Shown here piece by piece: positions 3,021 through 7,788 of a stretch of 47,981 bases of DNA. The stretch comes from Gammaproteobacteria bacterium (GTDB lineage: Bacteria > Pseudomonadota > Gammaproteobacteria > UBA5861): assembly GCA_022360445.1 (NCBI GenBank), contig JAKSCV010000053.1:1-47981 (forward strand), in the 5' to 3' direction. Positions within the stretch are counted from its first letter, which is position 1, and every line of letters starts with the position of its first letter. Both the position numbers and the translations under genes were made by a program. Below the pieces are notes generated by a model. That model was not told the origin of the DNA, did no database searches, and was given only the letters and a program-made list of their open reading frames with translations.

Positions 3021-3101
3021 ATGAACATGCTACTGATTAATCTTTTTGGCATTACTCTTATTCTGCTTATTATTTGGTGGTTCTGGCTTTACAAGCCCTA
3101 G
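3021..3101 (+). CDS. 26-residue single-helix membrane peptide after copA
   Basis: A short frame starting 8 bp after the copA stop encodes a peptide that is almost wholly hydrophobic and ends WWFWLYKP. It would form one transmembrane helix with a basic C-terminus. The pattern resembles, from memory, the N-terminal anchor of cupredoxin-like proteins sometimes found after copA, but no cupredoxin domain follows in this frame. It may be a genuine small membrane protein or the remnant of a truncated anchor. No clear Shine-Dalgarno sequence precedes it, so translation would depend on coupling to copA. Confidence 0.35.
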   Translation: MNMLLINLFGITLILLIIWWFWLYKP

Positions 3102-3187
3102 AGAGACTCTGGTGCAAAGAATGGCAGGTTTTTTGCTGAACTTTTGCTAAAAGATGTTCGCACCGACGCGTTAATGAGGACTTTGGC

Positions 3188-3838
3188 TTGGCAATGGAAA
3201 AAAATCTCACCAGGAAACTCGCCCTTTTAAAACCCGCACAACAACCGTCATCTCATCCAGCGGATTTTTGTATTCTGGTGGTGGATGCCCATCCCTCACG
3301 AGCAGAGTTACTCGCACAGACCTTAGCCGAGTATGGTTATCAATCGGCGTATTGTCATAACCATGCTGATCTCGATCGTGCGATACATAACTCCAAGCCC
3401 AAAATGGTGATTGTGGGCGTGAATGTCATTGATGACTCTCTGCTAAAAAACATTGAAACAATCACACAACAAGACCCTCTCCCCGTGATCATTCTTGCGG
3501 AAAGACACGCGCCAGAGCTAATCCAGCGAGCAGTGCGCGCCGGTGTCAGCGCGCATATTGTGGGTGGGTTTCAACCCCAACAATTGCAACCGATCATAGA
3601 CATTGCCCAGGCACAATTCTCCGAGTCCCGTGAGCGACACAAAGAGCTTACGACAGCGCAGAAAAAATTGGCCGAACGCAAACTCATTGAGCGGGCCAAA
3701 GGCATGCTGATGGCTAAAAAATCCATCGATGAAGCTCAAGCCTATCAACACCTGCGTAAAATGGCGATGGATAAGGGTATGACTCTTGCGACCGCCTCTA
3801 AAAATACAATCGACATCCTGAACCTTCTGGAAGACTAA
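3188..3838 (+). CDS. nasT: NasT-like ANTAR-domain antitermination regulator
   Basis: This 216-residue protein has a receiver-like domain at about 26-140 and a C-terminal ANTAR RNA-binding domain at about 158-214 (AERKLIERAKGMLM, then EAQAYQHLRKMAM). NasT proteins bind paired hairpins in nascent leader RNA and prevent termination ahead of nitrate-assimilation genes. The usual phospho-acceptor Asp at the end of beta-3 is Gly77 (VIVGV), so phosphorylation is unlikely; known NasT proteins are held by a partner, NasS, instead. No NasS gene is in the window. The TTG at 3188 is preferred because GAGGA at 3176-3180 is 7 bases away; an ATG at 3194 is the alternative. The matching RNA target lies just downstream. 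Confidence 0.85.
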   Translation: MAMEKNLTRKLALLKPAQQPSSHPADFCILVVDAHPSRAELLAQTLAEYGYQSAYCHNHADLDRAIHNSKPKMVIVGVNVIDDSLLKNIETITQQDPLPVIILAERHAPELIQRAVRAGVSAHIVGGFQPQQLQPIIDIAQAQFSESRERHKELTTAQKKLAERKLIERAKGMLMAKKSIDEAQAYQHLRKMAMDKGMTLATASKNTIDILNLLED

Positions 3839-3982
3839 CAGGCTGTGGATTTCGTTATCGAGACCGGCATAACCAGGAAAAATCAGGCGAAAAAGCGCAG
3901 TTTATGCGTAATAAATGAACGTTTTGAGCCTGATTTTAACGCCGTTAGAGCAAGGCAGATAGAAAATCCAAAGCCTGCTAGT

Positions 3983-3999
3983 TGTTCCAATTTGGTGCA
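3983..3999 (+). promoter_or_regulatory. NtrC-like enhancer site
   Basis: TGTTCCA-ATT-TGGTGCA matches the NtrC consensus TGCACCA-N3-TGGTGCA at 12 of 14 defined positions. Its centre is about 140 bp upstream of the start site inferred from the sigma-54 promoter at 4104, the usual distance for an NtrC enhancer. A second half-site, CGCACCA at 4013-4019, lies 25 bp on, near -114. The assignment is by consensus matching by eye. Confidence 0.6.
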
Positions 4000-4103
4000 A
4001 CAGCCTGTTAGTCGCACCAAGCAGAGTAAAAAATACCCTATAAAGTTTAAGAGATGATCTAAAAACCCTACCAAAACCGCTGACTTTCTACGCTTCACCT
4101 AGT

Positions 4104-4119
4104 TGGCACAGTCCGTGCT
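4104..4119 (+). promoter_or_regulatory. Sigma-54 (-24/-12) promoter of the transporter operon
   Basis: TGGCAC-N5-GTGCT differs from the sigma-54 consensus TGGCAC-N5-TTGCW at one base and keeps the invariant GG and GC with correct spacing. Transcription should start near 4130, immediately before the first leader hairpin. It has an NtrC-like site upstream and an antitermination leader downstream, which matches nas operons of other proteobacteria. Confidence 0.72.
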
Positions 4120-4135
4120 GAAGTCATGTCATCCC

Positions 4136-4184
4136 TCTTTTGTCAATGTGGACAAAAGAAACACAAGGTAGCAACGATGTTACC
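4136..4184 (+). promoter_or_regulatory. ANTAR target RNA: two hairpins with 6-nt loops
   Basis: Hairpin 1 pairs 4136-4144 with 4151-4159 (core CTTTTGTC/GACAAAAG) around the loop AATGTG. Hairpin 2 pairs 4167-4172 with 4179-4184 (GGTAGC/GTTACC, one G-U) around the loop AACGAT. Both loops are exactly six bases with A at position 1 and G at position 4, the known ANTAR-binding signature. The linker is 7 nt. The element lies between the sigma-54 promoter and an intrinsic terminator, and the NasT-like gene is immediately upstream. Confidence 0.82.
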
Positions 4185-4197
4185 CCGTTTAAAAAAG

Positions 4198-4260
4198 CAA
4201 AGGCGCTTACTTAACAGTCCGGCAGTGTGTTGTCTGGAGAAGTTAAGAGCGCTTTTTTTG
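4198..4260 (+). terminator. Leader terminator controlled by antitermination
   Basis: The arm 4203-4215 (GCGCT, a two-base TA bulge, then CTTAAC) pairs with 4242-4252 (GTTAAG-AGCGC). Seven T residues follow at 4253-4259. The loop can pair further through TCC/GGA. It ends 28 bases before the first transporter gene, so the operon is silent unless antitermination occurs. Its position just after the paired 6-nt-loop hairpins fits NasT-type attenuation. Confidence 0.8.
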
Positions 4261-4287: not shown

Positions 4288-5670
4288 ATGAAGTGGTTCA
4301 AACCGTTTAAAATAGCAGCCGCCATAACAATCTTCGGCGCAAGTCTGACCGCCCCCCTGAATGTACAGGCAGCCGAAGAAATTGGTTTCCCTGAAAAAGA
4401 AGAATTGACATTTGGCTTCATCAAGTTGACCGATATGGCACCGATTGCCATCGCTTATGAAAATGGCTACTTCGAAGACGAAGGCCTCTACGTCACGATT
4501 GAAGCACAGGCTAACTGGAAAGTATTGTTAGATGGTGTCATCGACGGACGTCTTGACGGCGCTCACATGCTGGCCGGCCAGCCAATCGCTGCAACTATGG
4601 GTTTTGGCACGAAAGCCCACATCATCACACCATTTTCCATGGACTTAAACGGGAATGGCATTACCGTATCCAACGAAATCTGGAAACAGATGAAGCCGAA
4701 TATTCCCAAACGGGCGGATGGCAAACCCGTACACCCGATCAAAGCCGACTACCTCAAACCCGTTGTGGACGCATTCAAAGCAGACGGAAAACCATTCAAT
4801 ATGGGCATGGTATTCCCTGTGTCTACACACAACTATGAGCTGCGCTACTGGCTTGCCGCTGGCGGCATTCACCCAGGCTACTATGCCCCTCACAAGGGTG
4901 ATACGTCTGGCCAAATCAGCGCCGATGCCTTGCTTTCTGTCACCCCACCTCCGCAAATGCCCGCCACGCTGGAAGCAGGTACCATTTACGGCTATTGCGT
5001 TGGTGAACCCTGGAACCAACAAGCTGTTTTCAAAGGCATTGGCGTACCGGTCATCACAGACTATGAAATCTGGAAAGATAACCCGGAAAAAGTCTTCGGT
5101 ATTACAGCAGAATTTGCAGAAAAGTACCCCAATACTACCATTCGTTTAACTCGTGCGTTGATCCGTGCCGCCAAGTGGCTGGATGAAAATGACAATGCCA
5201 ATCGTCCTGCTGCGGTGAAAATCCTGTCGCAATCCAACTATGTCGGTGCCGATTACGATGTCATCGCCAACAGTATGACTGGGACTTTTGAATATGAAAA
5301 AGGCGACAAGCGTGCAGTGCCCGACTTTAACGTCTTCTTCCGTTACAACGCGACTTACCCCTACTACTCCGATGCCATCTGGTATATGACGCAAATGCGC
5401 CGGTGGGGACAAATTTCAGAAGATAAAAGTGACCAGTGGTACTTTGACCTGGCGAAGAAAGTTTATCGTCCAGACATTTACACCAAAGCGGCACAGTCTT
5501 TGATTGCTGAAGGTTTGGCCAAAGCCAATGAATTCCCGGACTTTGCCAAGGAAGATGGCTTCAAAAAACCGCAAACCGAATTTATCGATGACATTGCTTA
5601 TGACGGCAAAAAGCCTAATGAATACATCAATAAGTTCAAAATTGGTCTGAAGAAAGGTGACCGGCTCTAA
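4288..5670 (+). CDS. NrtA/CmpA-family ABC transporter binding protein
   Basis: This 460-residue protein starts with a Sec-type signal peptide (hydrophobic core about 9-22, cleavage probably after NVQA at 28) and continues with an NrtA/CmpA domain ([20 protein letters not shown], then [10 protein letters not shown]). The family captures nitrate, nitrite or bicarbonate in the periplasm. Nitrate is favoured by the NasT gene and the nas-style leader upstream, but the substrate cannot be proved from sequence. Start ATG 4288 follows TAAGGAG. It is followed after 222 bp, not the usual few, by the permease gene, because an inverted-repeat element lies between them. Confidence 0.85.
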
Positions 5671-5694: not shown

Positions 5695-5861
5695 ATAGGA
5701 GCCTCTGATTAAGTTCATGATATTTCTGGCTTACCGGTTTTTTCGCGGTCGAGACCTTGTGAAAAACCACGAAGGGCGAGGTCATTGTCTTCGCTTTTCG
5801 CCTGACAACTGCACGTTTCAGGTCACGCAGAAACCGTATGAACTTAATCAGAGGCTCCTAT
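5695..5861. mobile_element. MITE-like element with 24-bp perfect inverted repeats
   Basis: The left end, 5695-5718 (ATAGGAGCCTCTGATTAAGT...), is an exact inverted copy of the right end, 5838-5861. They enclose 119 bp with no plausible gene. Total length is 167 bp. The terminal TA could be a target duplication around GGAGCCTC-type ends, as in IS630/Tc1- or IS5-related elements, but the parent element is not identified. The element separates the binding-protein gene from its permease and would fold into a strong hairpin in the mRNA. No second copy was noticed in the window. Confidence 0.75.
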
Positions 5862-5892: not shown

Positions 5893-6891
5893 ATGTCAAA
5901 TGCAGCCTCAATCACTGAAGGACGCGACATCAAACTCACCGCCACATCCATTCTGAATGCCGTATTTGAACGTGGTGTTAAAGTGGCGCTTGCGCCTGTT
6001 CTGGGCATTCTTGCCTTTCTTATGATTTGGTCATTAGCCGCGCAGAACATCCATACCTCCTTGGGGCAATTTCCTGGCCCCACGGATGTCTGGCAGCAGT
6101 TTGGATCGCTTTATAACGAACACACGACGGAACGGACGAAAGCCACGGCGTTTTATGAACGCCAGGAAAAACGCAACGCGGCCCGAGTGGCGAAAGACCC
6201 GACCTATGTTCCCAAAATCCGCGCGTATACAGGCAAGGAAACTTACTTTGACCAGATTGTCACCAGCCTGATTACTGTGATGAGCGGCTTTATTCTGGCG
6301 GCATTGATCGCTATACCCCTTGGCATTGCCGTGGGTCTTAACAGCGCATTGCGTAGCGGATTTAATCCGATCATACAAATCTTTAAACCCGTCTCCCCGC
6401 TTGCCTGGTTGCCACTGGTCACTATGGTGGTTAGCGCGGTTTATGTCAGCAATGACCCTCTGATCGCGAAGTCGTTTTTGAACTCCATGATCACGGTAAC
6501 GCTCTGCTGTCTCTGGCCCATGTTGATCAATACTTCTGTGGGCGTTGCTTCTCTGGATAAAGATTTGGTGAATGTCAGCCGGGTACTCAGATTACCTGCG
6601 CTCAAGCATGTGCAAAAAATTGTTCTGCCGGCTTCTGTACCCATGATTTTCACCGGTATGCGACTGTCACTGGGCGTGGCCTGGATGGTGTTAATCGCAG
6701 CGGAAATGTTGTCCCAAAACCCAGGTTTAGGGAAGTTTGTATGGGACGAGTTTCAAAACGGAAGTTCAAGCTCGCTGGCCCGCATCATGGCAGCGGTGAT
6801 TACCATTGGTTTTATCGGGTTTTTGCTTGATCGCGGAATGCTCGCTTTGCAACGTTTTGCTTCCTGGGATAAAGACAGTGCTGCAGCCTAA
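5893..6891 (+). CDS. NrtB-like ABC transporter permease
   Basis: This 332-residue inner-membrane permease belongs to the BPD_transp_1 family. One N-terminal helix at about 30-50 is followed by a polar stretch at about 55-112, then about five more helices; the conserved cytoplasmic loop is near 225-245 (LRLPALKHVQKIVLPASVP). It forms the channel for the NrtA-like protein and the downstream ATPase. The start ATG 5893 follows TAGGAG. The polar insertion after the first helix is long but is seen in NrtB relatives. Gap to the ATPase gene is 42 bp, consistent with one operon. Confidence 0.88.
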   Translation: MSNAASITEGRDIKLTATSILNAVFERGVKVALAPVLGILAFLMIWSLAAQNIHTSLGQFPGPTDVWQQFGSLYNEHTTERTKATAFYERQEKRNAARVAKDPTYVPKIRAYTGKETYFDQIVTSLITVMSGFILAALIAIPLGIAVGLNSALRSGFNPIIQIFKPVSPLAWLPLVTMVVSAVYVSNDPLIAKSFLNSMITVTLCCLWPMLINTSVGVASLDKDLVNVSRVLRLPALKHVQKIVLPASVPMIFTGMRLSLGVAWMVLIAAEMLSQNPGLGKFVWDEFQNGSSSSLARIMAAVITIGFIGFLLDRGMLALQRFASWDKDSAAA

Positions 6892-6933: not shown

Positions 6934-7788
6934 ATGACACCCATTTTAGACATCAGCCATATTGATATGGTTTTCCCAACACCGAAAGGCCCCTTCACCG
7001 CCTTGAAAAATGTTGATTTGAAAATATCCAAAGGTGAATTTGTCTCTTTAATTGGCCACTCAGGCTGCGGTAAATCTACCGTCCTGAATATCGTTGCCGG
7101 ACTTTATCAAGCCACAACCGGCGGCGTTGTTCTGCGTGGGAAAGAAGTGACAGAGCCTGGCCCTGAGCGGGCAGTCGTGTTTCAAAATCACTCACTGCTA
7201 CCTTGGCTAACGGCTTACCAGAATGTCGAACTGGCCGTAAAACAGGTTTTTGGCAAAACAAAAACCAAGACTGAAACTAAAGAGTGGATTGAACATAACC
7301 TAAAGCTGGTGCACATGGATCACGCCATGCATAAGCGGCCCGATGAAATTTCTGGCGGCATGAAGCAGCGCGTAGGCATTGCGCGGGCGCTGGCGATGCA
7401 ACCTGATATTTTGTTAATGGACGAACCCTTCGGCGCACTGGATGCCCTGACTCGTGCGCACATGCAAGACTCGTTGATGGAAATACAAAATGAGTTGAAC
7501 AATACGGTCATCATGATCACTCACGATGTGGATGAAGCGGTACTACTGTCCGACCGCATCGTAATGATGACCAATGGCCCTGCAGCAACAATTGGTGAAA
7601 TTCTGGAGGTCAACCTGGAGCGGCCTCGCGAACGCCTTGCACTTGCCGAGGATACTGACTACACCCATCTTCGGTCGGAAGTCCTGCGATTTCTCTATGA
7701 AAAACAACGCAAAGTGGAGGATATTTCTTCGGTAAAAAAGTCAAAGGCTAAAAAGCGCAACGATAAAAACCAACATCATGCCGCCTAA
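6934..7788 (+). CDS. NrtD-like ABC transporter ATPase
   Basis: This 284-residue cytoplasmic ATPase powers the nitrate-type importer. It has Walker A GHSGCGKST, Q-loop FQNHSLLPW, signature ISGGMKQR, Walker B ILLMDEPFGALD and an H-loop THDVDEAV, the pattern of the nitrate/taurine/sulfonate importer group. A lysine-rich tail of about 20 residues extends beyond the core. It is the last gene of the operon and an intrinsic terminator follows at 7877. Confidence 0.9.
   Translation: MTPILDISHIDMVFPTPKGPFTALKNVDLKISKGEFVSLIGHSGCGKSTVLNIVAGLYQATTGGVVLRGKEVTEPGPERAVVFQNHSLLPWLTAYQNVELAVKQVFGKTKTKTETKEWIEHNLKLVHMDHAMHKRPDEISGGMKQRVGIARALAMQPDILLMDEPFGALDALTRAHMQDSLMEIQNELNNTVIMITHDVDEAVLLSDRIVMMTNGPAATIGEILEVNLERPRERLALAEDTDYTHLRSEVLRFLYEKQRKVEDISSVKKSKAKKRNDKNQHHAA

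Follow-up and report, generated by a model that had tools for sequence, protein, structure and literature searches.

A nitrate-type ABC transporter with its own probable NtrC/sigma-54 promoter and ANTAR antitermination leader

The nrtABC locus and its surroundings

The window, a whole contig of 47,981 nucleotides (48 kb below), belongs to a 3.46-Mb gammaproteobacterial assembly that is 97.9% complete and lies in 110 contigs. A gene for a receiver-ANTAR (REC-ANTAR) regulator, here also called nasT, is followed on the + strand by nrtA, nrtB and nrtC/D (Table 1). By their family matches all three transporter subunits belong to NrtABC, nrtB falling below its own family cut-off. The NrtA protein comes closest to solved nitrate proteins, with a better match to NrtA (2g29, 169.7 bits) than to CmpA (2i48, 118.3 bits), and the Lys of the WKDxPEK motif is conserved between it and the known NrtA; nitrate, rather than bicarbonate or cyanate, may be the transported ion. 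The parts that the original prediction had placed at 3983-4260, namely an NtrC-like enhancer, a sigma-54 promoter, hairpins with A1 and G4 in their loops, and a terminator before the transporter, are all present, and the gene for a NasT-like protein that it saw next door is the REC-ANTAR gene.

Table 1. Features of the nrtABC locus, with positions in the window
Feature	Positions	Strand	Remarks
Second sigma-54-like site, ATGGCAGGTTTTTTGCT	3121-3137	+	TTG start of the REC-ANTAR gene 51 nt downstream; local P=0.01 at a score of 14.7 out of 16.2
REC-ANTAR gene, NasT-like without NasS	3188-3838	+	PF03861 2.8e-17, PF00072 1.4e-9; TTG start, ATG at 3194 possible
NtrC-like enhancer site, TGTTCCAATTTGGTGCA	3983-3999	+	2 mismatches in 14 to TGCACCA-N3-TGGTGCA; kept in L004
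Possible second NtrC half-site, CGCACCA	4012-4018	+	one mismatch to TGCACCA; kept in L004
Predicted sigma-54 promoter, TTGGCACAGTCCGTGCT	4103-4119	+	exact match to TTGGCAC-N6-TGCT; identical in L004
ANTAR-type hairpin 1, TCTTTTGTC[AATGTG]GACAAAAGA	4136-4159	+	loop A1, G4; extra upstream hairpin
ANTAR-type hairpin 2, GGTAGC[AACGAT]GTTACC	4167-4184	+	loop A1, G4; canonical P1 role
ANTAR-type hairpin 3, AAGC[AAAGGC]GCTT	4195-4208	+	canonical P2; antiterminator, mutually exclusive with the terminator
Intrinsic terminator	4200-4259	+	core arms 4203-4215 and 4242-4252, T run 4253-4259
nrtA, nitrate-type substrate-binding protein with signal peptide	4288-5670	+	PF13379 9.5e-96
nrtB, permease	5893-6891	+	PF00528; best match TIGR01183, 161 bits, below the 209-bit cut-off
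nrtC/D, ATPase	6934-7788	+	TIGR01184, 359 bits, above the 292-bit cut-off

A single congener was found, a metagenome assembly labelled Halothiobacillaceae (G001), whose corresponding locus is L004. The sigma-54 site of nrtA, the NtrC-like site and the second half-site are kept there despite changed surroundings. Two small elements, each at a TA, are missing from L004. The first, of about 140 bp (3838-3978), separates the nasT stop from the NtrC site, has imperfect inverted ends (CAGGCTGTGGATTT / AAATCCAAAGCCTG) and looks like a MITE; parts of it match a Pseudomonas veronii plasmid and a Halomonas plasmid record at about 81-82%. The second (5695-5861), between nrtA and nrtB, has 41-nt inverted ends that are 83% complementary. 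Two different MITE-like insertions would have entered this one operon since the split of the two congeners. A perfect 14-nt inverted repeat (3833-3846, GACTAACAGGCTGT; 4000-4013, ACAGCCTGTTAGTC) spans the nasT stop and the base directly after the NtrC site, and its second arm is altered in L004. Also kept in L004 is a small conserved ORF (3022-3102, MNMLLINLFGITLILLIIWWFWLYKP) located between a copper-type P-ATPase gene and nasT, which we take to resemble those of CcoS-type peptides.

The leader RNA and its distribution

All three hairpins of the leader carry A1 and G4 in loops closed by a C-G pair, with linkers of 7 nt between hairpins 1 and 2 and of 10 nt between hairpins 2 and 3. According to the published model, an ANTAR protein dimer binds a pair of hairpins whose hexaloops carry A1 and G4, and the distal hairpin overlaps the terminator (PMC3369931, PMC3369936), with which it shares its 3' arm (PMC3369936). 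Nucleotides 4203-4208 are common to hairpin 3 and the 5' arm of the terminator; since the 3' arm of hairpin 3 is thus terminator 5' arm, hairpin 3, and not hairpin 2, corresponds to the canonical antiterminator. The original prediction had described two hairpins, both of which are real and have A1 and G4, but they are not the switch pair, and the third hairpin had been overlooked. Hairpins 2 and 3 make up a probable ANTAR target, with hexaloops bearing A1 and G4, a short linker and a distal hairpin overlapping the terminator. Hairpin 3 has just four pairs and a folding energy of only -2.3 kcal/mol alone, against -23.5 kcal/mol for the terminator, so termination is expected whenever no protein holds hairpin 3.

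With short stems and degenerate sites, such hairpins might have arisen by chance on top of a terminator that is unregulated or acts as an ordinary attenuator. Several results argue against this reading, which is scarcely credible. The leader has three closed C[ANNGNN]G hairpins, a number reached in none of 20,000 dinucleotide shuffles (19,498 had none, 494 had one and eight had two); within the whole window, hairpin pairs of the ANTAR kind occur in the leader alone. The folded leader has a z of -3.2. When 14 leaders were aligned, 135 of 135 pair cells were standard pairs and eight of the ten pairs changed on both sides, counts that are partly circular because the sequences were chosen for closing hairpins; the covariation score and the paired cells exceeded those of all 500 shuffles.

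A covariance search with an ANTAR RNA model, which had been proposed as a check, points the same way. Model R2, built for hairpins 2 and 3 from twelve leaders of other genera, likewise chosen for closing hairpins but excluding the genus of this bacterium, matched 4167-4208 at 36.2 bits (E 1.6e-6 over 396 kb) and gave a weak match of 16 bits at L153. Searches against Rfam found no relevant family for the leader, at gathering cut-offs and at E<=10, and the terminator was missed by a sigma-70/terminator scanner, probably through its internal mismatches and the loop limit of the program.

The association of such leaders with nitrate genes extends through the class. In a sample of 369 gammaproteobacterial genomes, model R1 gave a strong match in 19. 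Eighteen matches fall outside the genus: a nasT- or nrtA-type gene is found no more than 1.5 kb away from 16 of them, and another adjoins a nirB-like gene. At least one of the matched genomes (G046) apparently contributed to the model. In a set of 26 genomes that carry a related nrtA, an ANTAR protein is present in 21 of the 22 whose leader has at least one strict hairpin and in none of the four without a leader hairpin (Fisher p 3e-4). The exception, L005, comes from a metagenome assembly in which a hairpin and no ANTAR protein were found. Some of these nrtA relatives have a single strict hairpin, or none where the genome has no ANTAR proteins. The genome studied here encodes the REC-ANTAR protein as its sole ANTAR protein and has one strong RNA match among the best 150 of 1966 candidates scored.

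The original prediction had noted that no reductase genes lie nearby, and this holds: a full-length nirB (C97), a NirB-like FAD oxidoreductase (C62) and the only molybdopterin oxidoreductase (C95) are on other contigs. No ANTAR hairpin pairs were found at these three loci, so the switch appears to serve the transporter alone; control of transporter and reductase can be split within one genome. The congener, too, has a single molybdopterin enzyme. That of the present genome is encoded at L152 (457-4737 of C95) as an Fdh/NasC-like protein beside a 655-aa protein joining Fe-S and DmsC-anchor domains, and is possibly an unusual nitrate reductase.

Promoter elements and a clade of solo regulators

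The sigma-54 element of nrtA has its GG at 4105-4106 and its GC at 4117-4118, which would set the transcription start near 4130, about 139 bp downstream of the centre of the NtrC-like site. The sigma-54 pattern has one match in the window, with a P<0.01 within the local region; since 1.4 matches with at most one mismatch are expected by chance over 48 kb, the weight of this site comes from its position and conservation. The NtrC-like site is the sole one in 48 kb at up to two mismatches. At up to three mismatches there are six such sites against 2.9 expected, so that taken alone it is weak evidence, near chance for a scan of this length. NtrC is encoded in the genome (729 bits). The GG-N10-GC element, the upstream NtrC site and the presence of NtrC in the genome are the traits expected of a sigma-54/NtrC promoter.

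The sigma-54-like site before the REC-ANTAR gene recurs unchanged in L004; corresponding sites were also seen in L008, L011, L014, L025 and L035, the last four resembling it in score and position. In the Psychromonas loci there is no good sigma-54 site before the leader itself, so regulator and leader are probably on one transcript there.

The regulator has the receiver and ANTAR architecture of NasT (PF00072, PF03861), and Pfam revealed these two domains alone, with no NIT domain. To this extent the earlier NasT-like label is apt, but it fits less well in two respects. The receiver has lost its phospho-acceptor Asp (VIVG), as well as its Thr/Ser and Lys, and no NasS paralogue occurs in the assembly, where the single PF13379 protein is NrtA.

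These traits are shared by a wider group. Thirteen solo regulators form one supported clade (97/98) as against 17 NasS-paired NasT proteins; L006 and L007 belong to it through their ANTAR genes L181 and L182. The Asp position is G, S, A or N in the solo clade and D in the paired group, except for N in L049 (L051 was not readable). A PF13379 search covered 12 solo-clade genomes (this one and those of L004, L006, L007, L008, L011, L014, L021, L024, L025, L035 and L046, that of L086 being left out) and found a second strong NasS-like protein in none, whereas NasS-paired genomes gave a NasS-like protein at 196-259 bits. Ordinary nitrate-responsive NasS-NasT control, a known arrangement (PMC3795266), could still apply if NasS lay in the 2% missing from an assembly in 110 contigs, or had diverged beyond PF13379. 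Such a hidden NasS is improbable: the congener and ten other searched solo-clade genomes also show no strong second PF13379 protein, and the receiver Asp, retained by paired NasT proteins other than L049, is missing from the solo clade.

Solo-clade leaders have three strict hairpins in 10 of 13 cases and two in the rest, which include L011, L086 and, with a further hairpin bearing a one-base bulge recognised by eye, L046. Paired leaders have mostly one strict hairpin (Mann-Whitney p 3e-6, a value that overstates independence, as the two groups are two clades). Three hairpins are not exclusive to the solo clade, an idea that was rejected because L064, L069, L075, L221 and L224 show three or more.

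Other variants were seen among the surveyed loci. The leaders of L027 and L057, both NasS-paired, have an upstream hairpin with the loop AACAGC, where A1 is present but G is not at position 4, a hint that a different recognition rule may apply there. L192 and L197 encode ANTAR proteins of 428 and 474 aa without a receiver, a NasR-like length, and in their genomes (those of L019 and L010) the nrtA leader has one strict hairpin. In the Thiodiazotropha genomes of L064 and L069, the NrtC ATPase is directly followed by open frames (L134, L135) of 738-761 aa that contain an NrtA-like domain, which suggests a fused NrtC of cyanobacterial type.

Proposed control and comparison with known ANTAR systems

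It is very probable that nrtABC, a single nitrate ABC transporter, has a leader of its own at this locus, which is transcribed from an NtrC/sigma-54 promoter and controlled by ANTAR antitermination. Under nitrogen limitation, phosphorylated NtrC bound to the upstream site would activate sigma-54 polymerase, and transcription would begin at about 4130. In the default state, the RNA would end before nrtA at the strong hairpin of 4200-4259. By analogy with the ANTAR family, from which both the binding and the direction of control are taken, the neighbouring REC-ANTAR protein would bind as a dimer to hairpins 2 and 3, hairpin 1 serving as an additional recognition site; by holding hairpin 3, and with it the 5' arm of the terminator, it would let polymerase read through into nrtABC. 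The original two-layer reading, in which an NtrC/sigma-54 promoter is combined with ANTAR antitermination, is well supported.

Because there is neither a NasS nor a phospho-acceptor, the input to the REC-ANTAR protein would be either an unrecognised sensor or its own sigma-54-driven amount, and a nitrate signal is an assumption. Under the first alternative, the pseudo-receiver would sense a ligand directly or through a partner, candidates being the NrtA precursor and a PII-type protein. AmiR offers a precedent: this ANTAR protein has a pseudo-receiver and is controlled without phosphorylation, through the binding protein AmiC (PMC3369936). NrtA is the sole NasS-like protein of the genome. NrtA bears an export signal, however, and besides nrtABC no partner gene is common to all neighbourhoods of the solo nasT genes; a gene of about 1.2 kb occurs downstream of nrtC in six loci, and the one tested gave no Pfam match. 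This sensor reading is plausible, if somewhat short of an even chance.

Under the second alternative, NtrC and sigma-54 would drive both the REC-ANTAR gene, from the site at 3121-3137, and the leader, and the transporter would be turned on once the antiterminator had accumulated, the protein reading no small-molecule signal. In addition to the missing NasS and phospho-acceptor, the conservation of that site in L004 and its presence in five other loci of the clade favour such a nitrate-blind timer. Loss of nasS in Paracoccus leads to constitutive expression (PMC3795266), so a NasS-free NasT can be active, and the solo protein could be always on. On the other hand, NasS-paired nasT genes tend to have sigma-54 sites as well, which are thus not specific to the solo clade, the NtrC half-site at nasT is not kept in L004, and the upkeep of a leader that reads no signal would be costly. 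A timer of this kind is rather unlikely, less so than a hidden NasS.

For the clade as a whole, we tentatively propose that a monophyletic REC-ANTAR lineage has dropped NasS and receiver phosphorylation and acts on mostly three-hairpin leaders, either as a nitrate-blind, NtrC-driven feed-forward antiterminator or through another sensor. Antitermination of the transporter would then be independent of a dedicated nitrate-binding partner.

The closest known systems share parts of this arrangement. The nasF leader of Klebsiella oxytoca, one of the two founding ANTAR cases, also lies before nitrate-assimilation genes and combines hairpins whose hexaloops bear A1 and G4 with an antiterminator that overlaps the terminator (PMC3369936, PMC3369931). 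It differs in that NasR has its own nitrate-sensing NIT domain, in having two hairpins rather than three, and in the reductases within the operon. In the NasS-NasT systems of Paracoccus, Azotobacter and Pseudomonas, a REC-ANTAR protein likewise acts on a leader before the structural genes (PMC3795266, PMC5424462); compared with these, the present locus has no NasS, a degenerate receiver, and the transporter alone as its target. The EutV leaders of the Enterococcus faecalis eut operons show the same dual-hairpin antiterminator geometry, with linkers of 5-12 nt (PMC3369931), but EutV is activated by the kinase EutW, whereas the usual route of phosphorylation is closed to the protein studied here. 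AmiR-AmiC of Pseudomonas aeruginosa provides a pseudo-receiver, as here, but in a different operon and with a binding-protein partner, of which no AmiC/NasS-type counterpart was found.

The original view that the promoter and leader parts were known only separately does not stand, since the nas genes, nasF among them, and nasT of P. stutzeri are NtrC-dependent (PMC8443478), and 66 sigma-54 promoters, including those of NasT genes, have been predicted at ANTAR genes (PMC12316311). Joint control of one operon by NtrC/sigma-54 and NasT/NasR is known from nas operons and is not new, and ANTAR leaders before nitrate transporters had already been predicted (PMC3369931). No description of three-hairpin ANTAR leaders or of a NasT without NasS was found in the open-access literature, most subscription papers being outside the scope of that search. 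The features that appear to be new are the three-hairpin layout, the NasS-less clade with its degenerate receiver, and the dedication to a transporter. ANTAR switches are usually explained by a dual hairpin and a defined input, whether a kinase, a NIT domain or a binding-protein partner; this locus and its clade retain the RNA switch, with an added hairpin, without a recognised input, and thereby make two questions testable, what the third hairpin contributes and how a partnerless pseudo-receiver is controlled.
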